Positions 3,207-22,045 of a stretch of 22,872 bases of DNA are shown one piece after another; within the stretch, counting starts at the first letter, position 1; every line of letters begins with the position of its first letter. A model generated the notes under the pieces. That model was not told the DNA's origin and ran no database searches. It saw only the letters and a program-made list of their open reading frames with translations. The stretch is taken from the IMG/VR virus record IMGVR_UViG_3300042892_003729, positions 1-22,872 of that record. One strand, written 5' to 3'. Both the position numbers and the translations under genes were made by a program. This DNA is from a virus.

Positions 3207-3373
3207 ACGAAAAATATATGGATTTACAACAAAAAGTGGTTTATGCAGTGCTAGAAATGCAGAAAGGCTCACCACTAACAGATTTCCTGACAGATAGCGA
3301 AATTGAAGAAGCACTAAGTATGTTCGCAGATGTGTTAATTTCTTTAGGTATTCAACTCAAAGGCGAAGAATGA
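3203..3373 (+). CDS. Short, possibly degenerate array member
   Basis: 56 codons bounded by ATGA overlaps at 3203 and 3370. It begins MNEKYMDLQQKVVYAVLEM and ends with SMFADVLISLGIQLKGEE. The MNE start, a FADVLI stretch where relatives have FAELIV, and the GEE end suggest a diverged member lacking the REC motif and the HFGV tail. It could instead be an unrelated helical protein. The end AAAGGCGAAGA still gives a usable ribosome-binding site. Confidence 0.6.
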   Translation: MNEKYMDLQQKVVYAVLEMQKGSPLTDFLTDSEIEEALSMFADVLISLGIQLKGEE

Positions 3374-3615
3374 ACGACAGAATTCGTGAACTATACCTAC
3401 AAGCCCATAGCATACGTCATTATGACGGTGATCCTATGCGTGAGGGTAATCCTCCTACTGTTTATTGGCAAGGTGAAAAGAGTGCTGAAAAGTTCGCCGA
3501 ACTGATTGTGCGGGAATGTTTGAATCAATGCTATAATCGTGGTATGAACGATGAATTGTACGAAGGGCAACTAAAAGCCGCAGCATATATTGAACAACAT
3601 TTCGGAGTCAAATAA
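3370..3615 (+). CDS. Array paralog 6 (FAELIVREC family)
   Basis: 81 residues: MNDRIRELYLQAHSIRHYDG, EKFAELIVRECLNQC and AAYIEQHFGVK. A copy-specific insert (DPMREGNPPTVYWQGEKS) separates start and core. The stop TAA overlaps the next ATG (TAATG at 3613-3617), and GGAG at 3604-3607 is 7 bases before that ATG. Function unknown. Confidence 0.77.
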   Translation: MNDRIRELYLQAHSIRHYDGDPMREGNPPTVYWQGEKSAEKFAELIVRECLNQCYNRGMNDELYEGQLKAAAYIEQHFGVK

Positions 3616-3979: not shown

Positions 3980-4356
3980 TTTCAGACGAACTAAGAAAAT
4001 ATGTTAATATGGTTCTTAAGGAAGAACAAGATGATGTACTCCACGAAATGGCAAATCTAGGAAGTCATAATCATGGAATTTCTGATATTGTCATCTGGGT
4101 AGGTAAAGCGAATAAACAACACGGACTGCGAATCAAAGTATCTAATCTAAAAAATAGATGGAGCAATGATGACAATTTTGTAATTCAGTTACCAAATTTA
4201 GACTATGATCCATCTCAAGTTGCTCGTTGGATTACTTCAGATATTATGAAAAAAATTATGACTTGGATTAGGCTGAACCAACAAGTGTTGTACGATTTTG
4301 AAACTGATAAAATCATGTATACCGATCAATTTATTAATAAAATTTCAAAGGTGTAA
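3976..4356 (+). CDS. Conserved phage-type hypothetical protein
   Basis: 126 residues, MISDELRKYVNMVLKEEQDD..., with HGLRIKVSN, FVIQLPNLDYDPSQVARWI and a final MYTDQFINKI. It looks like a compact alpha/beta protein, and I have the impression of similar proteins in other large phages, with no known role. It begins in an ATGA overlap with the paralog before it, and the next paralog starts 2 bases after its stop. It is larger and less variable-looking than the array genes around it. Confidence 0.65.
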   Translation: MISDELRKYVNMVLKEEQDDVLHEMANLGSHNHGISDIVIWVGKANKQHGLRIKVSNLKNRWSNDDNFVIQLPNLDYDPSQVARWITSDIMKKIMTWIRLNQQVLYDFETDKIMYTDQFINKISKV

Positions 4357-4357
4357 T

Positions 4358-4603
4358 ATGAACGAAAGAATTGAACAGTGTTTATACCTGTCAGGGCTAA
4401 CTGCACAGGGGTGCTGGGACGAATTGGATGATTATGCTAAACAGGGTATATACAAGTTCGCCAAACTTATTGTTCGGGAATGTTTAGCACAATGTTTAGC
4501 ACAGGTTGATAAAGTAGATGAGATGCTTGAGGATGACAGCGAGAAAGCAGGCGTGGCCTGGGTAGGATATGCAATTGAAGAACATTTCGGAGTTGAAGAA
4601 TGA
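4358..4603 (+). CDS. Array paralog 8 (FAELIVREC family)
   Basis: 81 residues from ATG 4358 (an in-frame ATG at 4298 would run back into the previous gene and is unlikely). It carries MNERIEQCLYLSGLTAQG, YKFAKLIVRECLAQC and YAIEEHFGVEE. LAQCLAQV is a short in-frame duplication (tttagcacaatgtttagcaca). GGAG at 4589-4592 lies 7 bases before ATG 4600. Function unknown. Confidence 0.76.
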   Translation: MNERIEQCLYLSGLTAQGCWDELDDYAKQGIYKFAKLIVRECLAQCLAQVDKVDEMLEDDSEKAGVAWVGYAIEEHFGVEE

Positions 4604-5544: not shown

Positions 5545-5733
5545 ATGACCGTCATTAAAACTAGTATTGCAGAAGTAATGAATGATGATCCTAATAGTCC
5601 ATTTTGGAAAAGGATTTCTTCTACTCCAGAATTCAAAAAGTTTGAAAAAGAACTTGACAACATCATGTCTATCAGTGTAAAATACGGTAAACCATATAAC
5701 AACCTTACACCTGAGGAATTAAAGAATGATTGA
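5545..5733 (+). CDS. Hypothetical 62-residue protein
   Basis: MTVIKTSIAEVMNDDPNSPF, then FEKELDNIMSISVKYGKPYN and NLTPEELKND. Charged and soluble, with no recognised motif. Its last codons contain GAGGA (5713-5717), the ribosome-binding site of glyA, and its stop lies 8 bases inside glyA. Probably co-translated with glyA. Confidence 0.55.
   Translation: MTVIKTSIAEVMNDDPNSPFWKRISSTPEFKKFEKELDNIMSISVKYGKPYNNLTPEELKND
5711..5729 (+). repeat. 19-bp direct repeat, left of glyA
   Basis: ctgaggaattaaaNaatga at the glyA start, matching 6860-6878 at its end with a single mismatch. The two copies are read in different frames, so the likeness is at DNA level. Confidence 0.7.
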
Positions 5734-6871
5734 TCCAAAAATTAAATTAGCATTAGCTAACGAAGACCTTAGACAGCACAATACAATTGAACTTATTGCT
5801 AGTGAGAACTATACCAGTCAGGCAGTAATGGACCTGTGTGGTAGCATCTTAACTAACAAGTACGCAGAAGGCCTGCCAGGTAATCGTTACTATAACGGAT
5901 GTGTTAATGTTGATGTAATTGAAACATTGGCAATTGAATACGCTACCAAACTGTTTGGATGTGCATTTTCTAATGTACAACCACACTCTGGTGCAAATGC
6001 CAACCTAGCAGTATTCAAGGCTTTTCTAAAGCCAAATGATATTGTTGTAGGTATGGATTTGGCTTCCGGTGGACACTTGAGTCACGGTGCTAAAGTCAAT
6101 GTCAGCGGCAATTGGTTCACCTCACATACATACGGTGTTAACAAACACGGTTTTATTGACTATGATGAAGTAGCACAAGTGGTAGTAGAAAAGCAACCTA
6201 AATTATTAGTTGCTGGAGCAAGTGCATACAGTCAAGCAATTGATTGGGCTAAATTTAAAGAAATTGCTGACAGTGTAGATGCATTGCTATTTGCAGATAT
6301 TAGTCACTATAGTGGATTGATTGTTGCTGATGAATATCCAAATCCATTCCCCTATGCTGATGTTGTTTCCACCACTACACACAAAGGACTACGTGGGCCA
6401 AGAGGTGGAATGATTCTATGGAATAATCCAGAATATAGTAGGCGTATCAATAGTGCAGTGTTTCCTGGCACCCAGGGAGGACCACTTATGCATATCATTG
6501 CTGGTAAGGCACAATGCTTATATGAAGCCCTCCAACCAGAATTTAAACTGTATGCTCGTCAGGTTCGTATCAATGCAAATATCATGGCACAAACTTTTAT
6601 TGATGCAGGGGTCAGTATTGTAAGTGGTGGTACTGAATGCCATATGTTTACTGTTGACCTACGCAATCAAACTATGAGCGGACGAGAGTATGCAGACTTG
6701 TTGGAGAGACATGGTATTACTGTCAATAAGAACGGTGTACCTGGTGAACAACGAAGTTTTGCTGAAACATCAGGAGTACGAATTGGGGTAGCAGCAGAAA
6801 CTACTAGGGGTCACAATGAGCAATGGTTCAAAGATTTGGCTATCCGTATGGTACAATTACTGAGGAATTAA
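5726..6871 (+). CDS. glyA: Serine hydroxymethyltransferase
   Basis: 381 residues. SHMT is a PLP enzyme that interconverts serine and glycine while charging tetrahydrofolate with a one-carbon unit, feeding thymidylate and purine synthesis. Seen: ELIASENYTS (22-31), NKYAEGLPGNRYY (44-56), NVQPHSGANAN (83-93), the PLP-lysine motif STTTHKGLRGPRGG (K220), FPGTQGGPLMH (246-256) and TSGVRIG (R352). D191 and H194 fit E. coli D200 and H203. Odd points: DISHYSGL replaces the usual DMAH-AGL, GVAAETTRG replaces GTPA-TTRG, and the protein stops about 40 residues early, lacking the last C-terminal helices of the roughly 417-residue bacterial enzyme. It starts with a good GAGGA site, 8 bases inside the previous gene. 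Confidence 0.95.
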   Translation: MIDPKIKLALANEDLRQHNTIELIASENYTSQAVMDLCGSILTNKYAEGLPGNRYYNGCVNVDVIETLAIEYATKLFGCAFSNVQPHSGANANLAVFKAFLKPNDIVVGMDLASGGHLSHGAKVNVSGNWFTSHTYGVNKHGFIDYDEVAQVVVEKQPKLLVAGASAYSQAIDWAKFKEIADSVDALLFADISHYSGLIVADEYPNPFPYADVVSTTTHKGLRGPRGGMILWNNPEYSRRINSAVFPGTQGGPLMHIIAGKAQCLYEALQPEFKLYARQVRINANIMAQTFIDAGVSIVSGGTECHMFTVDLRNQTMSGREYADLLERHGITVNKNGVPGEQRSFAETSGVRIGVAAETTRGHNEQWFKDLAIRMVQLLRN

Positions 6872-7757: not shown

Positions 7758-8009
7758 ATGCACGAACGAATTAAACAATTTGCAAGAGAAGCCCACCTTG
7801 ATGTATACGGACTGGGCAAAGATCGTACCCAATGGGAAGATACATTGGACAAGTTTGCCATCTTCATTGTGCAAGATTGTATTGCACAAGTTCAGAGTCT
7901 CAGAGGTTACAGTGGGTATAATGATGAACATATCGTTTCCACTCCTGATTGGGGATTTACCTTGAAGGCTGTACAGGAATTACTTAACAACATGTATAAG
8001 GAATCATAA
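7758..8009 (+). CDS. Array paralog 10 (FAELIVREC family, detached)
   Basis: 83 residues, MHERIKQFAREAHLDVYGLG, DKFAIFIVQDCIAQV and a final VQELLNNMYKES. Start and core match the family (FAIFIVQDC for FAELIVREC), but the HFGV tail is replaced. It sits 2.7 kb beyond the main array, separated by glyA and the acidic genes, so it is either a relocated copy or an older branch. Its TAA overlaps the next ATG (8007-8011). Confidence 0.7.
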   Translation: MHERIKQFAREAHLDVYGLGKDRTQWEDTLDKFAIFIVQDCIAQVQSLRGYSGYNDEHIVSTPDWGFTLKAVQELLNNMYKES

Positions 8010-8555: not shown

Positions 8556-9383
8556 ATGAAAAAACTACTTATTCTACTATTCCTTCTATTTTCATCAATT
8601 ACACATGCTCAACTAGCAACATCAACTGTACCATTACCAGCCGATGTAGCAGCAATCAAAAAGAAAAATGTCTTAGTTGTCGCAATGACTAAGAAAGATA
8701 ACCCACCATTCTTTAGTGGTGAGGGTGACGATATCAAAGGGCTTGATGTAGAAATTGCTCGCCGAATTGGTGTTATGTTAGGTGTGCCAGTACAATTTCG
8801 CAGAGATGCAGAAAGTTTTGCTGAAGTTGTAGAACAAGTTAGAACTAATGGTGCGGATATTGCTGTTAGCAAGCTATCAATCACTGGCCCTAGATTACTC
8901 GCTGTTAGATTTAGTGTGCCATACATTAAACTCAAACAAGCAATGATTATTAACCGTCTATGGTTAAGTAAAAATACTAAAGGAAGAGAAACCTACGAAG
9001 TTATTAGAAACTTTGATGGTAAGATTTCCTTTATCCGTAATAGTAGTTACGATACCTTTGCTCGTATTAACTTCCCAAATGCTAAATTTCTACCAGAAGA
9101 TAATTGGAGTACTATTATTGACAATGTAATGAGTGGAAAAATTGCTGCTGGATATAGAGACGAATTTGAGATTAAGAAAATTAGTTTTGAGAAGCCTGAT
9201 GCTGCCATTAGTACCAAAACAGTTACTATATCAGATTCAGTAGATAATATTGCAGTAGCAGTAAATTATAATTCAACTCATCTATTAAGCATTATAGATT
9301 TTGTCATCGGAAATGAATTCCACAATGTTGACACTAAACGGTTAATGGATAGATACAAAGCTGAAAGTGCAGTTAAGAAGTAA
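8556..9383 (+). CDS. Periplasmic amino-acid-binding protein (SBP family 3)
   Basis: 275 residues from ATG 8556 (a GTG at 8538 is in frame but would spoil the signal peptide). MKKLLILLFLLFSSITHA is a cleavable signal peptide, cut after A18. The mature part follows the family-3 solute-binding pattern: VLVVAMTKKDNPPFF, GLDVEIARRIGVMLGVPVQF, GADIAVSKLSITGPRLLAVR and FSVPYIKL, then the second lobe. These proteins bind amino acids in the periplasm, usually for an ABC transporter. No permease or ATPase gene is present here; an SDF symporter follows 15 bases later. Carriage by a phage is unusual. Ligand unknown. Confidence 0.82.
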   Translation: MKKLLILLFLLFSSITHAQLATSTVPLPADVAAIKKKNVLVVAMTKKDNPPFFSGEGDDIKGLDVEIARRIGVMLGVPVQFRRDAESFAEVVEQVRTNGADIAVSKLSITGPRLLAVRFSVPYIKLKQAMIINRLWLSKNTKGRETYEVIRNFDGKISFIRNSSYDTFARINFPNAKFLPEDNWSTIIDNVMSGKIAAGYRDEFEIKKISFEKPDAAISTKTVTISDSVDNIAVAVNYNSTHLLSIIDFVIGNEFHNVDTKRLMDRYKAESAVKK

Positions 9384-9398
9384 TCAAGAGGATACAAA

Positions 9399-10685
9399 AT
9401 GTCAATACATTTAAAAAGTTTTCTAGTTAGTCCGTGGACAATATTAAGTTCAATTATATTAGGAGTGTTAGCCGGAGTATATCTACCACAAGAAAGTATG
9501 GGATTTGAAAGTATAGGCGGAATTTATATTAGCTTACTTAAAGTTGTTGTACTTCCATTCTTACTGGCAACCATACTAGTAGGTGTAATAAGTTTATTAC
9601 AAAAAGAAGGTAGTGCTACTATGATAAAGCGTATTATTATAGGCTTTATTGGTAGTATGGTTATTGCAGGTGCTATTGGAGTAGGTTCAGTAGCTATAAC
9701 TGGTTCTGAAATGACCCAAGAGAAGAAAGTACAACTTGGTGCATTAGTTAATAATAAAGATCAAGGCAGTGATTTGAATATCACATTAAAAGAACCAATG
9801 CCGATTACTCCTACAGTTAGTCCGATGGAAGTAGCAGAGAAATTCATTCCGGAAAACATATTCAAGAGTTTGGACATGGGAGAAAGTCTGAAAGTAGTAA
9901 TCTTTTGTTTGATATTTGGCATTGCATTAGGTAATATCAAAACAGCAGGACAACAGATACTGGTTGATGTGCTAAAAAGCATACAACAAGCTAGTATTAG
10001 TATATTCAAGTTCTTAAACTATTTCTTACCATTTGCCTTATTAGCAATGATTAGTAGTCAAGTAGGTAAAGTAGGAGTTGGAATTTTTGGAACTCTATTA
10101 GAATTTATTTGTCAACAAGCCCTTGGCGGAATAGTTGTTATTGTATTAGCAACTATTGTAATTTGGATGAGAGCTAAAACAAGTATTATGGATGTGATTA
10201 GTGCAACAAAAGAAACATTAATCGTAGCAATAAGTTCACGCAGTTCATTAGCCTGTATACCATATGCACAAGAAGCATTAAACAAATTAAAGTTTGACCG
10301 GGCAGGTGTTGAATTAACTGTTCCGTTAAGTTTCACAGTTAATAGAATTGGTAGTATTGTATATTATGCTATCGCAACTGCATTTATTGCTAACATATAT
10401 GGTATGCCATTAGGTATATCTGGGTTACTAGTTATACTATTTGGTAGTGTATTAGCAGGATTAGCTAGTGCTGGTACTACTGGTATTCTAACAGTTGCTA
10501 CAGTTGCAATTGTATGCGATTTACTAAAATTGCCGAGCGAGGCTGTATTAGTATTGTTAATAGCAGTTGATCCATTAATGGATATGATAAGAACTGCTAG
10601 TCATGTTCATGGGAATGTAGCAGTTACTGCATTTGTATGTGATTTAGAAGCCGAGCATGGACAAGATCAAAGACTTCCTGCTTAG
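9399..10685 (+). CDS. Dicarboxylate/amino-acid symporter (SDF family) with altered cation sites
   Basis: 428 residues, close to the family's usual length, with about eight membrane segments and two re-entrant hairpins. Seen: LLKVVVLPFLLATILVG (46-62), the serine-rich hairpin AISSRSSLACIP (277-288), SFTVNRIGS (311-319), ASAGTTGILTVATVA (357-370) and DPLMDMIRTASHVHGN (391-406). Aligned with GltPh, substrate contacts D394 and R397 are kept (D395, R398). Sodium-site residues differ: D312 is I317, N401 is H402 and D405 is N406. It should import an acidic or neutral amino acid across the inner membrane, but the coupling ion is uncertain. A GAGGA site precedes it; the next gene overlaps by 29 bases. 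Confidence 0.88.
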   Translation: MSIHLKSFLVSPWTILSSIILGVLAGVYLPQESMGFESIGGIYISLLKVVVLPFLLATILVGVISLLQKEGSATMIKRIIIGFIGSMVIAGAIGVGSVAITGSEMTQEKKVQLGALVNNKDQGSDLNITLKEPMPITPTVSPMEVAEKFIPENIFKSLDMGESLKVVIFCLIFGIALGNIKTAGQQILVDVLKSIQQASISIFKFLNYFLPFALLAMISSQVGKVGVGIFGTLLEFICQQALGGIVVIVLATIVIWMRAKTSIMDVISATKETLIVAISSRSSLACIPYAQEALNKLKFDRAGVELTVPLSFTVNRIGSIVYYAIATAFIANIYGMPLGISGLLVILFGSVLAGLASAGTTGILTVATVAIVCDLLKLPSEAVLVLLIAVDPLMDMIRTASHVHGNVAVTAFVCDLEAEHGQDQRLPA

Positions 10686-11262
10686 TTTGTTAACCTGGAT
10701 TGGTGAAAGCCCATTCAGGTTATTCACAGTAGTATTACTGTGTGTTTTAGGACTGGCTGGATGGATTGTATATTCAGAAAAAGATGCATTTATGTCGTCC
10801 TATCGTGCTCAGCAAGCATTACCCAAGATGAATGGGAAATATGAAGAGACAACAAACTTCATAATGAAGAACACTACGGCTGAAATGGTAGCTATGTTTG
10901 AAGTAAACACCTTATTAAATACTAGAAAACTAGTATATTTGGTTACTAGAGGTGGAAATCATAATAAAGATTATAATGGATATGATGTTGGATTGTTTAC
11001 CAAGAATTATGATAACAATACTGATGTAATTGGATTAATGTCAGGTAAAGTTCCATGTAGTCCTTATTTAAAACCACAAAGTTATATTGGGTTTGTATAT
11101 AGAGAAGCTGGTGTTGTATATATGTGTCGCATTAGTGTTCCGGCAGAACCTGGTGTATTTATTGGTCAAATATCCGTAGGTTGGAAAGAACAATTAGATG
11201 AAGTAGAAGTTGCTCAAACAGTGTTGACAATTGCATCTAGTATGTTGTATGTCAAGAAATAA
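10657..11262 (+). CDS. Membrane-anchored protein with periplasmic domain, unknown
   Basis: 201 residues. One membrane segment at about 19-39 (SPFRLFTVVLLCVLGLAGW) and a large domain probably outside the membrane, with YRAQQALPKMNGKYEET, NTLLNTRKLVYLVTRGGN and two cysteines (KVPCSPY, YMCRISV) that could form a disulfide. The region after the anchor resembles a sensor-like alpha/beta domain, but I cannot assign a family. It starts 29 bases inside the symporter gene, so it is coupled to it and may partner the transporter. Confidence 0.68.
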   Translation: MDKIKDFLLSLLTWIGESPFRLFTVVLLCVLGLAGWIVYSEKDAFMSSYRAQQALPKMNGKYEETTNFIMKNTTAEMVAMFEVNTLLNTRKLVYLVTRGGNHNKDYNGYDVGLFTKNYDNNTDVIGLMSGKVPCSPYLKPQSYIGFVYREAGVVYMCRISVPAEPGVFIGQISVGWKEQLDEVEVAQTVLTIASSMLYVKK

Positions 11263-11287: not shown

Positions 11288-11316
11288 TTGACTTCATCCT
11301 AAAAGTCGTCTATAAT
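11288..11316 (+). promoter_or_regulatory. Sigma70-type promoter of the dadA-like gene
   Basis: TTGACT (11288-11293), a 17-base spacer and TATAAT (11311-11316), in the 80-base gap before the gene at 11343; AGGA at 11331-11334 is its ribosome-binding site. A short inverted repeat GTCGT/ACGAC (11305-11309 and 11319-11323) brackets the -10. Confidence 0.75.
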
Positions 11317-11342: not shown

Positions 11343-12518
11343 ATGAAGGTAGCAGTAATCGGTGCGGGTATTGCAGGAATAACTGCAGCTTACTACTTGG
11401 CACGACAAGGTAATGATGTTACCGTATATGAACAAGAACGATATCCTGCAATGCAAACTAGTTTTGCCAATGGCGGACAAGTATCTGTTTCCAATAGTGA
11501 AGTATGGACTACTTGGAGCAATGTATTTAAAGGTGCTAAATGGGTATTCCAAAAAGATGCACCTCTTCTAATTCGCCCCAGGCTAGACTGGCAAATGTTC
11601 AAATGGCTATCTAAATTCTTATTCCATACTGTCCGTGGTGATTATACAAAAAATACTAAAACAACTATCCAAATGGGATTAGCTTCTAGAGAACTATATA
11701 ACGAAATCATAAATGAAGAAAATTTAGAATCATTTGATCAAAGTTATAATGGTATCCTTCATTTTTATAAAGATGGTACATATTGGGATGCGGCAGTTAA
11801 AGCAAAAACTATATATGATGAGTCTAACTGTGAATGGTCACTAATTGATGGATTTCAAGTAAACACATATGATCCTGCATTAAAGGATATTCAAGGTGTA
11901 ATTGGTGGTGTAGTTACTAAGGATGATTGGACTGGTGACATACACAAATTCTGTAAATTACTAACCAATAAACTAATAACAAAATATAAAGTTGAATTTT
12001 GTTTTGATACTAAAATAACTCACCTTATTAAGGACCTAGCTGGTTATGATCGTATAGTAGTAGCAAATGGTGTAGGAAGTGTGGCTTTAGCTAACACTAT
12101 TGGTGATTCTTTGGACATTTATCCAGTAAAAGGATATAGTATTACTATTAATGCAACTGATAAAAAATCAATTGCTGCATTACCAACAGTTAGTCTATTA
12201 GATGATCAAGCAAAAATAGTAACTGCTACTTTAGGTACACGATTACGAGTGGCAGGGACTGCAGAATTTACTGGTGAGAATTATGATATTCGGCGTGATA
12301 GGATTGAACCATTATTGAATTGGGTTCATGAGAATTTACCTAATATTGATACTAGTAATTATTCAAGCTGGGCATGTTTGCGCCCCATGACTGCAAATAT
12401 GATGCCTATCGTTAGACAAAGTAAAAAGAATCCAAAAGTATTTTATCACACTGGGCATGGACATTTAGGATGGACATTAGCCCCATTTACAGCAAAACAA
12501 TTATCGGAGTTAATATGA
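11343..12518 (+). CDS. dadA: FAD-dependent amino-acid dehydrogenase, DadA-like
   Basis: 391 residues (bacterial DadA about 432). D-amino acid dehydrogenase oxidises D-amino acids to 2-oxo acids and ammonia and passes electrons to the respiratory chain. Seen: the dinucleotide fold GAGIAG (7-12) with E30 at the end of strand 2, QTSFANGGQVS (38-48), KWVFQKDAPLLIRPRLDW (66-83), YPVKGYSITI (260-269), CLRPMT (345-350) and TGHGHLGWTLA (370-380), all in DadA order. It lacks the C-terminal tail beyond that motif. Own promoter at 11288; the next gene overlaps by ATGA. Another DAO-family enzyme (for example a glycine or sarcosine oxidase relative) is possible, but the motifs favour DadA. Confidence 0.87.
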   Translation: MKVAVIGAGIAGITAAYYLARQGNDVTVYEQERYPAMQTSFANGGQVSVSNSEVWTTWSNVFKGAKWVFQKDAPLLIRPRLDWQMFKWLSKFLFHTVRGDYTKNTKTTIQMGLASRELYNEIINEENLESFDQSYNGILHFYKDGTYWDAAVKAKTIYDESNCEWSLIDGFQVNTYDPALKDIQGVIGGVVTKDDWTGDIHKFCKLLTNKLITKYKVEFCFDTKITHLIKDLAGYDRIVVANGVGSVALANTIGDSLDIYPVKGYSITINATDKKSIAALPTVSLLDDQAKIVTATLGTRLRVAGTAEFTGENYDIRRDRIEPLLNWVHENLPNIDTSNYSSWACLRPMTANMMPIVRQSKKNPKVFYHTGHGHLGWTLAPFTAKQLSELI

Positions 12519-16233: not shown

Positions 16234-16845
16234 ATGTGGATAGTGCAATGGCTCCCAGATAGTTGGGTATTATTTTTTACTTATTTGATATTATCTATAG
16301 GCATTGCTTCATATATAGGAAGTAAATTACTAGTATGGGTTCCACCCGTTTACAAATACAAATTGGTTGTTGAAATATTAGGTGTATTACTGTTTAGTAG
16401 TGGGGCATATTTGTATGGTGGTAGAGTGGTTGAACAAATATGGCAGGCTAGAGTTACTGAGTTGGAAGCTAAATTAAAAGTCGCCGAAAACAAAAGTGCA
16501 GAAGTAAATACGGTAATACAAACCAAAATAATTACAAAAATCAAAGTTATCAAGGAAACAGTATATGCAAATAAAGAAATTATCAAAGAGGTTGTTGGTA
16601 AACAGCTTGATGCTAAGTGTGAGTTGCCTGTTTCTACAGTCCTGCTCCACAATAGTTCCAGTCAAAATGAAGTTTCCAGAGGCGCCGGCAGTACTGATGG
16701 AAGCCCCTCCGATGTTAAAGCCAGTGACCTCCTCACAACAGTCGTTGAAAACTACGGAACCTGCTACGAAATCAGAGAAAAATTAATCGGTTGGCAAACT
16801 TGGTATACGGAACAAAAGAAGATTTTTGAAGAAGCACAAAAATAA
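16234..16845 (+). CDS. Rz: Inner-membrane spanin (Rz-like)
   Basis: 203 residues. Two hydrophobic segments (about 10-32 and 44-63) are followed by a long charged coiled coil (about 68-125, TELEAKLKVAENKS...) and a C-terminal part with DAKCELPVSTVLLHNSS and a final helix. An i-spanin spans the periplasm and, with the o-spanin, fuses inner and outer membranes in the last step of lysis. Two N-terminal membrane segments instead of one is slightly unusual. The o-spanin is nested inside it at 16565-16786, and the endolysin follows. Confidence 0.8.
   Translation: MWIVQWLPDSWVLFFTYLILSIGIASYIGSKLLVWVPPVYKYKLVVEILGVLLFSSGAYLYGGRVVEQIWQARVTELEAKLKVAENKSAEVNTVIQTKIITKIKVIKETVYANKEIIKEVVGKQLDAKCELPVSTVLLHNSSSQNEVSRGAGSTDGSPSDVKASDLLTTVVENYGTCYEIREKLIGWQTWYTEQKKIFEEAQK
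16565..16786 (+). CDS. Rz1: Outer-membrane lipoprotein spanin (Rz1-like), nested
   Basis: 73 residues, wholly inside the Rz-like gene in the +1 frame. MQIKKLSKRLLVNSLMLSVS then CLFLQSC: a basic start, a hydrophobic core and lipobox LQSC with Cys27 as acylation site. The mature part is short and Pro-rich (FPEAPAVLMEAPPMLKPV), as in Rz1 proteins. It would sit in the outer membrane and pair with the i-spanin across the cell wall. The nested arrangement is the classic Rz/Rz1 layout. A shorter start at Met16 is possible. Confidence 0.82.
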   Translation: MQIKKLSKRLLVNSLMLSVSCLFLQSCSTIVPVKMKFPEAPAVLMEAPPMLKPVTSSQQSLKTTEPATKSEKN

Positions 16846-16863
16846 ATCAGGAAAGTATCAATT

Positions 16864-17475
16864 ATGTTAGAAAAAGAACAATTAGCTCAGATTATTCCAG
16901 GAAATCCCTACTTAGATCATTGGTATTCTGCATTGACTCAATGCTTGCCAGATTATGATATCACTAGTCCACAAAGAATGGCCGCATTTTTAGCTCAATG
17001 CGCTCATGAAAGTGGTGGGTTTCGTGCATTAAAAGAAAACCTAAATTATCGGGCAGAAACTTTAAGGAAAGTATTTCCAAAGTATTTTCCTAATGATGCA
17101 CTAGCACAACAATATGCTCACCATCAAGAGGCTATTGCTAATAAAGTATATGCCAATAGAATGGGCAATGGTGATGAAGCATCAGGAGATGGATTCCGTT
17201 ATTGTGGCCGTGGGTTAGTTCAACTCACTGGTAAAAATAACTATCAATCATTTGCTGATAGCATTGAAACTGCAGTAGAAGATGTTCCTGAATTCCTAGC
17301 TACATTTGAAGGTGCGGTGCAGTCTGCTTGCTGGTTCTGGGAAACTAATAATTTAAATAGATGGGCAGATGTTGGTGACATTGAAAAAATGACCAAGATT
17401 ATTAATGGCGGTGTCATTGGACTAGCTGATCGCATCAAGCATTACAATCATGCATTACATATATTAGGAGCATAA
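16864..17475 (+). CDS. Endolysin, glycoside hydrolase family 19 type
   Basis: 203 residues. The family-19 fold is visible: AAFLAQCAHESGGFRAL (40-56) with catalytic E49, RMGNGDEASGDGFRYCGRGL (99-118) with E105 as second acid, VQLTGKNNY (119-127), WFWETNNL and KIINGG near the end. Phage GH19 enzymes cut peptidoglycan glycan strands. No signal peptide, so a holin is needed for export, and a holin candidate follows two genes later. It starts 18 bases after the spanin gene. Confidence 0.9.
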   Translation: MLEKEQLAQIIPGNPYLDHWYSALTQCLPDYDITSPQRMAAFLAQCAHESGGFRALKENLNYRAETLRKVFPKYFPNDALAQQYAHHQEAIANKVYANRMGNGDEASGDGFRYCGRGLVQLTGKNNYQSFADSIETAVEDVPEFLATFEGAVQSACWFWETNNLNRWADVGDIEKMTKIINGGVIGLADRIKHYNHALHILGA

Positions 17476-17476
17476 A

Positions 17477-18025
17477 ATGTCAACAGCAATTAAACCATTA
17501 TCGCGGAGTGAACGTGAAGCGCAAATTAAGGACAAAGCCGGTTGGCTTATCACTGTTCTTGCTGCTCTCTTGGCCGTTACTACTCTTATTGGTGGCAGCA
17601 ATAGTAGTAAAGTGCTTAATAACACCCTAGCTATTAATGATACCTGGGGATTCTATCAAGCGAAAAGTATCAAACAAACTGCATATGAGTTAGCATCTGC
17701 CCAAGCAGCAGATAGTGGTAATGTAAAGAATGCAGAAAAATATGCTGCTAAAGCTGCTAGTTATGAAAGTGATACCGTTACTGGTGAAGGTAAAAAAGAG
17801 TTAATGCTAAAAGCTAGGACACTAGAAGCTGAGAGAACCTCTGCAAAACAGCGTAGTCCATTTTATACATATGCAGGTAGCTTGTTTCAAATCGCTATTG
17901 TATTATTAACTGCAAGTATTTTAGCAGTCTCAATGTCATTGTTTTGGGGCAGCATGGTAGTCGGTGCAATTGGTGCTATGGTTATGGCGCAGGCCATTTG
18001 GCTAGTGTTACCAATTACATTATAA
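17477..18025 (+). CDS. DUF4337-like membrane protein of the lysis block
   Basis: 182 residues. One membrane segment at about 23-43 (AGWLITVLAALLAVTTLIGG), an exposed segment with WGFYQAKSIKQTAYELASAQ followed by an Ala/Lys-rich coiled coil, and two C-terminal membrane segments (about 134-157 and 158-180). The W-YQAKSIKQ pattern is that of DUF4337, a small family without known function. The position between endolysin and holin candidate suggests a part in lysis or its timing, which is inference. It starts one base after the endolysin stop. Confidence 0.72.
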   Translation: MSTAIKPLSRSEREAQIKDKAGWLITVLAALLAVTTLIGGSNSSKVLNNTLAINDTWGFYQAKSIKQTAYELASAQAADSGNVKNAEKYAAKAASYESDTVTGEGKKELMLKARTLEAERTSAKQRSPFYTYAGSLFQIAIVLLTASILAVSMSLFWGSMVVGAIGAMVMAQAIWLVLPITL

Positions 18026-18037
18026 TCGGGGAATATC

Positions 18038-18613
18038 ATGGCAGAAAAGAAAAAAGAAGATTGGATGAATTCAAAGTGGCGTCCAACTATGGGATGGATG
18101 TATATGGGAATATGTACATTTGATTTCATGCTTGCACCTGTCTTATGGACTATGGTTCAAGCATTATTTCATGGTGGAATTACTTCACAATGGCAACCAT
18201 TAACACTACAAGGTGCCGGACTATTTCATCTTGCGATGGGCGCAGTGTTAGGCATTGCTGCACACGGTAGAACACAAGAGAAACTAAATGGTGCTGAAAC
18301 AGGTGGTATAGGAAGTTTTGGTCCAGGAGCAGGTACAACTTATGTTCCTCCAGGCCAAGGCTCAGTTACAGTAAATAATAGTAATCAACCAATGAACAGT
18401 GGTGGATTTGGAGGAAGTAATGGCAATTTCGGTTCATCAGGTGGAGCTCCATCATTTGGCGCTCCTCAAACAGGCGGATTCGGGTCACCCAGTGGTTTTG
18501 GTTCATCAGCACCAGCAAGTAGTTTTGGTTCCCCCTCTTCAGCAGCCCCACAAGTAATAACTGGGTTCGGTGGAAAACCAGGTCCTGCTCCAATACAGGA
18601 TCCAATTTTATAA
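18038..18613 (+). CDS. Putative holin (3TM gene-transfer-release type)
   Basis: 191 residues. SKWRPTMGWMYMGICTFDFM and LAPVLWTMVQALFHGG, then LTLQGAGLFHLAMGAVLGIA, give about two to three membrane segments and the WRPTMGWMY signature of the 3TM holin group. After AAHGRTQEKL comes an 80-residue tail of Gly, Ser, Phe, Asn and Pro (GGFGGSNGNFGSSGG and similar), low-complexity and disordered. Holins make membrane holes that release the endolysin. The long tail is unusual and could be a late add-on controlling timing. Its context in the lysis block supports the call. Confidence 0.7.
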   Translation: MAEKKKEDWMNSKWRPTMGWMYMGICTFDFMLAPVLWTMVQALFHGGITSQWQPLTLQGAGLFHLAMGAVLGIAAHGRTQEKLNGAETGGIGSFGPGAGTTYVPPGQGSVTVNNSNQPMNSGGFGGSNGNFGSSGGAPSFGAPQTGGFGSPSGFGSSAPASSFGSPSSAAPQVITGFGGKPGPAPIQDPIL

Positions 18614-18913: not shown

Positions 18914-19741
18914 ATGAAAGATTACTTCAATATTTTAGGCGTGGACGAATCTGCATCACCAGATGAGATTAAAAAAGCCTACAAAAAATTAGCAATGCAA
19001 CACCACCCAGATCGTGGTGGTGAACAAACTAAATTCCAAGAAATTCAGGAAGCTTATGCAACATTAAGTGATCCAGAAAAACGAGCCCAATGGGTACATG
19101 GTAATCAACAACATCATCACGGTGGGCATCCAGGATTCCAATTCAACTTCGGACAAGGAATGGATTTCGGTGATATTCTGCGGGGATTCCAAAATGGTGA
19201 TCCATTCGGACAATTCCGTCAACCAGCAAAAAACCGAGATTTGCGTGTAATGATGGAAGTCTCATTAGAGTCTACATTAGAAAATCAAGCACAACATATC
19301 AATGTTCAACAAGGCAACGGTACCAGAACAGTAACAGTAGATGTCCCACGCGGTGTCATGACTGGTATGCAAATGCGATGCCCAGGGCATGGTGATCATT
19401 CTAATACTTCTCTACCACCTGGAGATTTGTATGTTGAATTCCGTGTTCGTCAACATCCAAACTTCCAAACTGCAGGAACAGACTTACTACAGACAGCTAC
19501 TATCAATTGTATTGATGCAATCATCGGCACAAAGCATACGGTAGTAGGACTTGATGGTAAAAACTTTGAAATCGTTATACCTTCAGGTACTCAACAAAGT
19601 ACCAAATTTAGAATTCAAGGACAAGGATTATGGGTAATTAATCAAGCAGTACGAGGGGATCTATATATAGAGATAGCAATAACAGTTCCACAAACTATAT
19701 CCGCAACTCAGCTTCAACAACTACAACAACTGGTAAAATAA
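18914..19741 (+). CDS. dnaJ: DnaJ/CbpA-type J-domain co-chaperone
   Basis: 275 residues. The J domain (1-60) has DYFNILGVDESASPDEIKKA, YKKLAMQHHPDRGG (HPD at 31-33) and AYATLSDPEKRAQW. A Gly/His/Phe/Gln-rich linker follows (about 63-105, HHHGGHPGFQFNFGQG). The C-terminal substrate-binding domains include VDVPRGVMTGMQMRCPGHGD, GDLYVEFRVRQHPNF, CIDAIIGTKHTVVGLDG and GDLYIEIAI. There is no CxxCxGxG zinc domain, so it is CbpA-like. It stimulates Hsp70 (host DnaK). Own promoter; clpA follows after 3 bases. Confidence 0.93.
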   Translation: MKDYFNILGVDESASPDEIKKAYKKLAMQHHPDRGGEQTKFQEIQEAYATLSDPEKRAQWVHGNQQHHHGGHPGFQFNFGQGMDFGDILRGFQNGDPFGQFRQPAKNRDLRVMMEVSLESTLENQAQHINVQQGNGTRTVTVDVPRGVMTGMQMRCPGHGDHSNTSLPPGDLYVEFRVRQHPNFQTAGTDLLQTATINCIDAIIGTKHTVVGLDGKNFEIVIPSGTQQSTKFRIQGQGLWVINQAVRGDLYIEIAITVPQTISATQLQQLQQLVK

Positions 19742-19744
19742 TAC

Positions 19745-22045
19745 ATGGCAACACAATCTAATACTGAAATTGAAACTATTATTTTAAATTCTAGCAACTC
19801 AGCCAAGAAATTTAAGCATGAATATGTAACTCTTGAACATCTTGCATTGGCTATTGCACAGTATGCTCCGTTCAAAGAGATTACACTAAAATATGGTGCC
19901 GATATTGATGGGCTAGTAACTGATTTGAGTCAGTATCTGAAGGACCAAACTTATTTGATTTCAACTACTAATTCTGCTCCACGGAAAACACAAAGTTTAG
20001 AACGAGTATTTAATCGTGCATTAACTCAAGTTCTTTTTGGTGGCCGAGGACAAATTAAAGTAGTTGATTTACTTCTTAGCATCCTAACTGAAACAAATAG
20101 CTATGCTGCATACTTCTTTATGAAATATGGATTTGATAGGGCAACCGTCGTTACGATGTATCATCAACATTATGCCGAATCTGGCGGTAACAATTCTGCA
20201 ATGAATGTACAAGCAGATGAAATTCTTGCTGAATATTGCACCAATCTAAATGAAATGGCTAAGGCTGGTGAAATTGATCCAATCATTGGGCGTGATGCTG
20301 AACTAACTGAAATGGCTCAGGTACTTGCTAAGCGTAACAAGGCCAATGTGTTACTAGTAGGTGATCCTGGTGTCGGTAAAACAGTTCTGGCTGAAGGACT
20401 AGCTCGTAATATCGTTAACGGAGATGTACCAGAATATCTCAAGGACTATGTAGTCTATAATCTTGACATTGGATCACTATTGGCAGGATCTAAGTATCGC
20501 GGTGAGTTTGAAGAAAAGCTAAAAGATGTACTCAAGGCACTAAACCTTAAAGGCAAGACCATTCTATTCATTGATGAAGCTCATCAAATGCGTGGCGCTG
20601 GCAGCGGTTCAGCAAGTTCAGTTGACTTTAGCAATATGATTAAACCAGCATTGACCCGTGGTAAGATCAAAGTAATTGCTAGTACTACTTGGGAAGAATA
20701 TAGTCAAAGCTTTGAAAAAGACCGTGGACTTATGCGTAGGTTCTATCGTCTAACTGTAGATGAACCTACTTCAGTAGCAGCAAAAGAAATCTTGCGTGGT
20801 ATCAAAAAACATTTTGAGAAATTCCACGGTGGTATTATAAGTGACGAAGCAATTGATGCCGCAGTTGACTACAGTGTACGCTATCAAACTGATAAGAAAC
20901 TACCTGACAAGGCGATTGACTTAATTGATACTGCTTGTGCTAAGCAAAAGATCATTCCTGAAAATATGGGAACATTTGTTATCAATAAAAGCCATATCGT
21001 AGAGGCTATCAGCAAGGTCACTAAGATTCCAGCAGATCAAATTGGGGCTGATGCACCAAACAGTTTGGTTAATCTTGAAGCTAATATTCGGCAAGGCCTG
21101 TATGGACAGGACTCTGTAATCAATGATGTACTAGAGAAGATTTATGTCGCTAAGGCTGGCATCAAGACTCTAAATCGTCCTATTGGTAGTTTCTTGTTTT
21201 TAGGACCAACTGGAACTGGAAAAACTCAACTAGCAAAACTATTATCAGAAAACCTTAGCATGAAAATGATCAGGTTTGATATGAGTGAATACCAAGAGAA
21301 ACACAGTGTAGCTAAACTCATTGGTGCTCCTCCAGGGTATGTTGGTTATGATGATGCTAATCTAGGTGGTGGATTACTGATTAGTGCATTGGAAAAGAAT
21401 CCCAATGCCATTGTATTGTTTGATGAAATTGAAAAGGCACATCCTGATGTGTCCAATATCTTGTTACAATTCATGGACGAAGGATTTGTTACTGCTAGTA
21501 ATGGTAAGCGAGCCGATGCCAGGAATTCTATCCTGGTAATGACTAGTAATCTTGGTGCGGCTGACAATGAACGCAATCAAATTGGATTCGGACAAGAATT
21601 GCAGCGTACTGGAGAAGATGACAAAGCGGTAAAGGACTTCTTCAAGCCTGAATTCCGAAATCGTATTGATGCTATTTGTAAATTCGATCATCTGGATCGC
21701 ATCAGCATGAAGAAAATTGTTGCAAAGTTCATAGTTGAGATCAATGATCTATTAGCCGAGAAGCAACTTAAAATTCGCCTAAGTGAAGCAGCAGTTGATC
21801 ATTTGTTAGTTAAGGGATTTGATCATAAAATGGGTGCAAGGCCACTAGCCAGAGCTATTAATGATCTTATTAAAGTTCCAGTTAGTAAGAAAATCTTGTT
21901 TGAAGGGCTACCCAATGGTTCTGTTGTTAATATTGATTGTGTTGATGAGAAATTGACCTTTGATACTATCACTTACAACTTAGCATTACCATTAGATACA
22001 ACATTACCATTGGTGGATGAGCATGGCTTTATACGATTGGACTAA
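19745..22045 (+). CDS. clpA: ClpA-type AAA+ protein unfoldase
   Basis: 766 residues (E. coli ClpA 758). N domain 1-145; AAA-1 with Walker A GDPGVGKT (206-213), Walker B LFIDEAH (274-280), pore loop KYRG (250-253) and Arg pair 331-332; AAA-2 with GPTGTGKT (487-494), VLFDEIEKAH (557-566), pore GYVG (531-534), PEFRNRID (635-642) and sensor-2 GARP (697-700). It lacks the long middle domain of ClpB, so it is ClpA/ClpC-like. The loop NQIGFGQ has IGF at 613-615, matching the ClpP-docking IGL of ClpA. It would unfold proteins and could hand them to host ClpP; no clpP is in the window. In an operon with dnaJ. Confidence 0.95.
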   Translation: MATQSNTEIETIILNSSNSAKKFKHEYVTLEHLALAIAQYAPFKEITLKYGADIDGLVTDLSQYLKDQTYLISTTNSAPRKTQSLERVFNRALTQVLFGGRGQIKVVDLLLSILTETNSYAAYFFMKYGFDRATVVTMYHQHYAESGGNNSAMNVQADEILAEYCTNLNEMAKAGEIDPIIGRDAELTEMAQVLAKRNKANVLLVGDPGVGKTVLAEGLARNIVNGDVPEYLKDYVVYNLDIGSLLAGSKYRGEFEEKLKDVLKALNLKGKTILFIDEAHQMRGAGSGSASSVDFSNMIKPALTRGKIKVIASTTWEEYSQSFEKDRGLMRRFYRLTVDEPTSVAAKEILRGIKKHFEKFHGGIISDEAIDAAVDYSVRYQTDKKLPDKAIDLIDTACAKQKIIPENMGTFVINKSHIVEAISKVTKIPADQIGADAPNSLVNLEANIRQGLYGQDSVINDVLEKIYVAKAGIKTLNRPIGSFLFLGPTGTGKTQLAKLLSENLSMKMIRFDMSEYQEKHSVAKLIGAPPGYVGYDDANLGGGLLISALEKNPNAIVLFDEIEKAHPDVSNILLQFMDEGFVTASNGKRADARNSILVMTSNLGAADNERNQIGFGQELQRTGEDDKAVKDFFKPEFRNRIDAICKFDHLDRISMKKIVAKFIVEINDLLAEKQLKIRLSEAAVDHLLVKGFDHKMGARPLARAINDLIKVPVSKKILFEGLPNGSVVNIDCVDEKLTFDTITYNLALPLDTTLPLVDEHGFIRLD

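Follow-up and report, generated by a model that had tools for sequence, protein, structure and literature searches.

Many uncultured giant phages carry an operon that encodes a family 3 solute-binding protein (SBP), a secondary carrier of the SDF (DAACS) family and a protein that resembles holin T of phage T4. To judge from their sequences and gene order, the SBP and the carrier likely form a binding-protein-dependent SDF importer. That phages have coupled this bacterial importer to the T-like holin is a proposition that we regard as evenly balanced between true and false. If it is true, then an amino acid that is imported, or sensed, by the pair may set the moment of lysis. The operon is described here from an IMG/VR virus record of 22,872 bases (G000), which is called the window throughout. 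Phage genes in the window include those for a virion protein (phrog_12928), PhoH, a GH19 lysozyme, DnaJ and a Clp ATPase. The features most relevant to the argument are the following.

8556 to 9383, plus strand: family 3 SBP (PF00497; 275 aa)
9399 to 10685, plus strand: SDF (DAACS) carrier (PF00375; 428 aa)
10657 to 11262, plus strand: T4-holin-T-like protein, orf201 (from its model and structure matches; 201 aa)
11343 to 12518, plus strand: DadA-like FAD D-amino-acid dehydrogenase (PF01266, E = 8.3e-55)
16234 to 18613, plus strand: lysis-type region with a signal-peptide-motif protein, a GH19 endolysin (16864 to 17475), a 182-aa membrane protein and a phrog_3427 holin-like protein

The SBP and SDF genes are separated by exactly 15 bases (9384 to 9398), as the original prediction had stated, and the third gene overlaps the SDF gene by 29 nt. 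When 2.9 million viral contigs were scanned for the SBP, for an SDF alignment and for the third protein, 82 viral cassettes were left once copies with identical cassette DNA had been collapsed. The order and strand of the three genes are constant across this set. Counted as sequences rather than independent events, by pattern scans biased to close relatives and on contigs many of which are fragmentary, an SBP gene lies directly upstream of every viral SDF gene that has 900 nt or more of sequence before it (64/64), an SDF gene is downstream of all 65 viral SBP genes with 400 nt or more after them, and the third gene is downstream of each of the 59 viral SDF genes followed by 700 nt or more. Both genes of the proposed two-gene unit are real and their pairing stands; the unit itself is larger, because the linkage of the third gene is equally strict. 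The product encoded from 10657 had been named in the prediction, which missed its T4-holin-like identity and the racemase described below.

SBP and SDF protein identities are about 50-81% among the tabulated loci, near-copies of the window aside. Purifying selection is strong, with median dN/dS values of 0.09 for the SBP, 0.06 for the SDF, 0.07 for the third gene and 0.13 for the racemase, and the genes that flank the cassette vary between contigs. The combination of invariant linkage, low dN/dS and varied flanks indicates that the three-gene cassette is under selection as one unit. Its large carrier contigs (G003-G008, 331-525 kb) possess a terminase, and the record of 524,565 bases (G003) holds two diverged cassette copies (L043 and L045) with a single terminase match. 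No cultured phage with the SBP-SDF cassette was found in INPHARED, where tblastn with the SBP and SDF gave weak matches below 60% identity, many of the SDF matches sitting in records of bacterial sequence. One probable promoter had also been proposed for the pair. However, sigma-70-like matches in the region number 20 against 20.9 expected from shuffles, and promoter evidence for a single transcript was rejected since the scan is at chance level.

The first protein of the cassette matches PF00497 (SBP_bac_3) with E = 2.6e-15 and 56.8 bits (cut-off 26.4), and it is hydrophobic near the N-terminus in the manner of a signal peptide. Its AlphaFold model (pLDDT 84.6) has amino-acid SBPs as best structural neighbors, with Z values that reach 20.0 and an rmsd of 4.6 over 242 residues. 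Two residues that are invariant in 22 relatives, R113 and D202, align with the canonical alpha-carboxylate Arg and the amino-group Asp, respectively, of solved amino-acid SBPs. Given these aligned residues and the modeled fold, the SBP should bind an amino acid.

SDF carriers are textbook elevators. The carrier of the window scores 220.7 bits against PF00375 (E = 4.1e-65, cut-off 27.9) over profile positions 3-384 of 387, and among the families considered only SDF matched; it does not belong to TRAP, TTT or GltS. It aligns over its full length with solved aspartate transporters and keeps the HP1 and TM8 substrate motif. The D-M-x-R-T of TM8 is invariant in phage SDFs, and D395, R398 and T399, which correspond to GltPh D394, R397 and T398, do not vary among 22 phage sequences. 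In its HMM score, full-length alignment and HP1/TM8 motif, the carrier resembles known SDF/DAACS proteins (E. coli GltP, GltPh/GltTk and DctA). It differs from them in a TM7 motif that reads NRIG, in His and Asn at the N401 and D405 equivalents, and in always being accompanied by an SBP in phages.

The same pair occurs on bacterial chromosomes. Several hundred genomes were sampled from Burkholderiales, Rhizobiales and at class level; in these too, the most closely related SDFs adjoin an SBP, with chromosomal pairs in both Rhizobiales and Burkholderiales. In one Burkholderiales MAG (L103), an SBP of 65% identity is immediately followed by an SDF of 67% identity. In the SDF tree the phage sequences fall to the same side of a single branch and this MAG is their neighbor, with modest support (66/76). 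Seven bacterial loci (L107, L263-L267 and L269) have the order SBP-SDF-racemase, and at two loci (L277 and L280) there is an overlap of a few bases between the SDF gene and the racemase gene. None of the bacterial SBP-SDF loci examined contains the third phage gene, and five bacterial regions of 13-14 kb show no consistent catabolic partner besides the racemase. Our reading is that the phage cassette is a bacterial SBP-SDF-racemase operon into which a phage gene has been placed, between the SDF and the racemase, transfer having presumably run from bacteria to phages. The SBP-SDF pair would then be a binding-protein-dependent secondary importer that phages inherited.

Two Burkholderiales loci (L108, 2-316; L109, 11-241) have a small PAAR-like protein (DUF4280-type, by eye) ahead of an SBP-SDF-SDF arrangement. 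PAAR-like proteins are of a kind linked to type VI secretion, and this neighbor is a possible wider context of SBP-SDF pairs. An SBP-SDF fusion considered for the first of these loci (L108, a 726-aa frame) was rejected, as the SBP and SDF are in different frames. PHROG 10776 (674 positions, matched at 25-252) might represent an SBP-SDF fusion.

A 2025 paper on TAXI-GltS gives the SBP-dependent secondary transporters as TRAP, TTT and then TAXI-GltS itself; it counts only TRAP and TTT as previously known and does not mention SDF (PMC12344293). Its authors called for more such classes, as a test of whether it is the elevator mechanism that permits an SBP, and they proposed TAXI-GltS on the same kind of evidence as is given here for SBP-SDF (PMC12344293). 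As in all three systems, the gene for a periplasmic SBP stands beside, and is apparently translationally coupled to, the gene for an elevator-type secondary carrier that lacks an ATPase. The phage pair differs in that its SBP is of family 3 (PF00497) and its carrier is of the SDF/DAACS family (PF00375). An SBP gene invariably beside the carrier with no ABC permease, which is what distinguishes SBP-dependent secondary transporters, is the arrangement found, and the cognate permease encoded with the SBP that would identify an ABC importer is absent from the ten phage records searched. The SBP_bac_3-SDF pair would add a class of SBP-dependent secondary transporter whose carrier has the archetypal elevator fold. 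In the open-access literature we found no paper that pairs SBP_bac_3 with SDF, none that links a holin with a phage racemase or symporter, and no report of the cassette itself.

Toward its N-terminus the third protein has an amphipathic stretch; a single TM helix and a GAF-like domain in the periplasm follow. In its model (pLDDT 85.6) the helix spans residues 21-53 and the domain comes after it. Top PDB matches by Foldseek include the periplasmic domain of T4 holin T (6psk_T, E = 3.5e-5), and VIA-align superimposes the model on T4 T (6px4_B) with rmsd 3.2 over 132 residues and Z 12.8, a Z that unrelated GAF domains equal. Annotated class III holins are among its viral matches. Alignment to T4 T homologs by hhalign is colinear and full length (E = 9.5e-4) with a probability of only 22%. 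At E up to 10, the T4 holin Pfam (PF11031) matches none of 24 family members and the T4 holin PHROG (860) does not match the family. PDB sequence searches with orf201, alone and as a profile, gave nothing meaningful. Because PF11031 and PHROG 860 do not match, we describe the protein as one that would work like T and do not file it under PF11031.

The strongest support for a T-like identity comes from gene placement. In a 44-kb record that has no SDF (L210), the gene for a 73%-identical relative is flanked by those for an Rz-like spanin and a GH19 endolysin (phrog_181, 9.4e-77). In MW202825 the gene for a more distant relative is found two genes ahead of a lysozyme, and two cassette loci (L026 and L028) have a second, divergent copy of the T-like gene near GH19. 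Four large contigs (G004-G007, 331-353 kb) have no T-like match other than the cassette protein. Unlike the L210 relative, the window copy stands outside a lysis cassette: the lysis-type region at 16234-18613 lacks a T-like holin, and the T-like gene is part of the SBP-SDF operon. The phrog_3427 holin-like gene beside the endolysin of the window implies that the T-like protein of the operon may not be the lysis holin.

In T4, the periplasmic antiholin RI binds T (PMC11413866), and lysis inhibition in T4 and ICP1 responds to superinfection (PMC11413866, PMC7182436). The phage protein shares with T an N-in single TM helix, a periplasmic GAF-like domain and a close relative in a lysis cassette. 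It differs from the T/RI system in the missing PF11031 match and in having no RI-like gene, with an SBP and a carrier in the neighboring places. Small secreted proteins are encoded directly after T-like holin genes outside the cassette (L223, L224 and L244, a 98-aa ORF; L026 at 11620-11901, 93 aa). These are candidates for RI-type antiholins, and the SBP-SDF cassette is without such a gene.

Of the 62 phage loci with room, 43 have a racemase gene no more than 3 kb beyond the third gene, and in 40 of those 43 it comes within 65 nt. The phage cassette racemases match PF01177 and have both catalytic cysteines in 44/44 complete copies. Those tested from phage and bacterial cassettes pass the NCBIfam model for CuyB, a cysteate racemase, with 196-227 bits (cut-off 190), so in these two respects they resemble CuyB and aspartate racemases. 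The window differs in having no racemase. There, and in one near relative (L185), the DadA-like dehydrogenase (434 bits for NF009074, under its cut-off of 494) takes the place of the Asp/Glu-type racemase. A promoter-like 11/12 match at 11288-11316, in the 80-nt gap before the window dehydrogenase, suggests that this gene probably has its own promoter. The near relative has an extra 234-aa gene (793-1497) between the holin-like gene and the dehydrogenase, which indicates that the spot after the holin-like gene is exchanged among phages and can hold a racemase, a dehydrogenase or another gene.

These parts can be assembled into a mechanism. The SBP would capture an alpha-amino acid in the periplasm and hand it to the SDF elevator carrier, a step that is well supported by the genomics. 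Its ligand would probably be an acidic amino acid (aspartate, glutamate or cysteate), possibly in the D-form. The third protein, for which a T4 T architecture is supported, would act as a holin. From the fact that phages always add this gene to the importer, we infer that the holin is acted on at its periplasmic GAF-like domain, either by the ligand or by the liganded SBP/SDF, in the way that antiholin RI acts on T4 T. Amino-acid availability could then delay or trigger lysis, which would place lysis under the control of the importer, and the racemase or dehydrogenase might make or remove the ligand in its D-form. If the T-like holin is functionally linked to the importer, then phages read an amino acid to time lysis, and an amino-acid input would be new.

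The original reading of the pair as a transporter survives to the extent that an importer is supported, and the T4-holin-like third gene and the racemase move the likely function away from plain uptake, toward one tied to lysis. A more specific version has the amino-acid receptor and SDF directly controlling the T4-type holin as a nutrient-gated clock, with the racemase or dehydrogenase setting a D-amino-acid signal. We put this version forward tentatively, as a real possibility that falls short of probable. If correct, it would combine a new SBP-dependent transporter class with a new form of phage lysis control or of phage-phage communication.

The cassette could also be a nutritional auxiliary metabolic operon, in which the importer feeds the infected cell and the holin-like gene is carried for late co-expression with no regulatory tie. 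The bacterial SBP-SDF-racemase operons that occur without a holin favor this explanation, as do the racemase scores above the CuyB cut-off, which fit acidic amino-acid catabolism, and the presence in the window phage of a serine hydroxymethyltransferase in addition to the D-amino-acid dehydrogenase. A passenger holin should, however, have been lost or moved somewhere, and this never happened in 59 loci. The lysis genes of the large phages (GH19) are also far from the cassette, which argues that late co-expression is not what keeps the holin gene. We consider a purely nutritional role possible and somewhat doubtful.

A second alternative is suggested by the cation sites of the carrier. Residue numbers and ion-site roles follow established GltPh work, in which D312 is a Na+ ligand of the aspartate transporters. 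The TM7 'NMDG' motif is replaced by NRIG in the window SDF and by NRIG, NRLG or NRVG in phage SDFs generally. In these phage carriers the equivalent of D312 is Ile, Leu or Val, and the N401 and D405 equivalents are mostly His and Asn, so that the Na+-site carboxylates looked for (D312 and D405) are not present. By alignment, ligands are missing at two of the three Na+ sites of GltPh, and an Arg occupies the M311 position. Bacterial SBP-adjacent SDFs have NRIG, LRIG, LRAG, LRTG or CRYG at the TM7 motif, with one NPGG. Nearly all SBP-linked SDFs thus have an Arg in this motif and lack its Asp. The form N-[ML]-[DN]-G is kept in two of three sampled SBP-less homologs (L274 and L275) and in E. coli GltP; the third homolog (L104) has NRAG, with no SBP detected. 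Since the bacterial SBP-adjacent SDFs are altered as well, the changed TM7 sequence marks an SBP-associated SDF subfamily rather than phage decay. This is a distinct subfamily, accompanied by an SBP in bacteria and phages alike, with a common change in its cation sites.

The degenerate Na+ ligands might instead reflect an SDF that no longer transports. Without ion-coupled transport, the SDF could serve as a membrane receptor or antiholin scaffold that restrains the T-like holin together with the SBP, and the missing ligands at two of three sites, the Arg at M311 and the holin-like third partner are all in keeping with such a sensor. The same motif changes occur in holin-less bacterial SBP-SDF pairs, for which uptake is the simpler role, and the equivalents of D394, R397 and T398 remain invariant in the phage carriers. 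A sensor that does not import is unlikely on these grounds, and an importer inherited from bacteria is the better explanation of the pair.

The involvement of an ABC transporter was evaluated by searching for its other components. PF00528, the ABC permease family, is absent from the window and from nine related phage records (77-525 kb), and the same search was positive in 14/14 control genomes. The window also has no ABC ATPase above cut-off, in agreement with the claim that it contains neither component. Matching permease genes elsewhere in the genome had been named as the finding that would overturn the proposed secondary transporter, and on the phage side, in the window and the nine related records, there are none. 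A stand-alone ABC ATPase scores above cut-off in one of the nine related records checked. A 217-aa protein of this kind, without a permease, is encoded in a 236-kb phage record (G310 C1:63454-63912), about 8 kb from the cassette.

The original prediction had offered two options, a binding-protein-dependent secondary transporter or an SBP that serves host permeases. The first is now the better one, and the second leaves the invariant SDF partner unexplained. That the SBP delivers to host ABC permeases while the SDF works alone is very improbable: family 3 SBPs normally deliver to ABC permeases and a host permease would be needed where the phage has none, but in phages the SBP always comes with the SDF (65/65), and SBP-SDF pairs are also found on bacterial chromosomes.

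Several other features of the window were observed. The serine hydroxymethyltransferase gene (5726-6871; NCBIfam 534 bits, cut-off 335) lies about 1.7 kb before the cassette. Five small ORFs (1476-1733, 2734-2982, 3370-3615, 4298-4603 and 7758-8009) have in common a motif similar to FAELIVRECLxQ...IEQHFGVE and constitute a multicopy paralogous family. The ORF at 1966-2367 consists mostly of AWDAAWDAAYTAARGGA-type repeats. The genes for DnaJ and a ClpB-like ATPase adjoin at 18914-22045.
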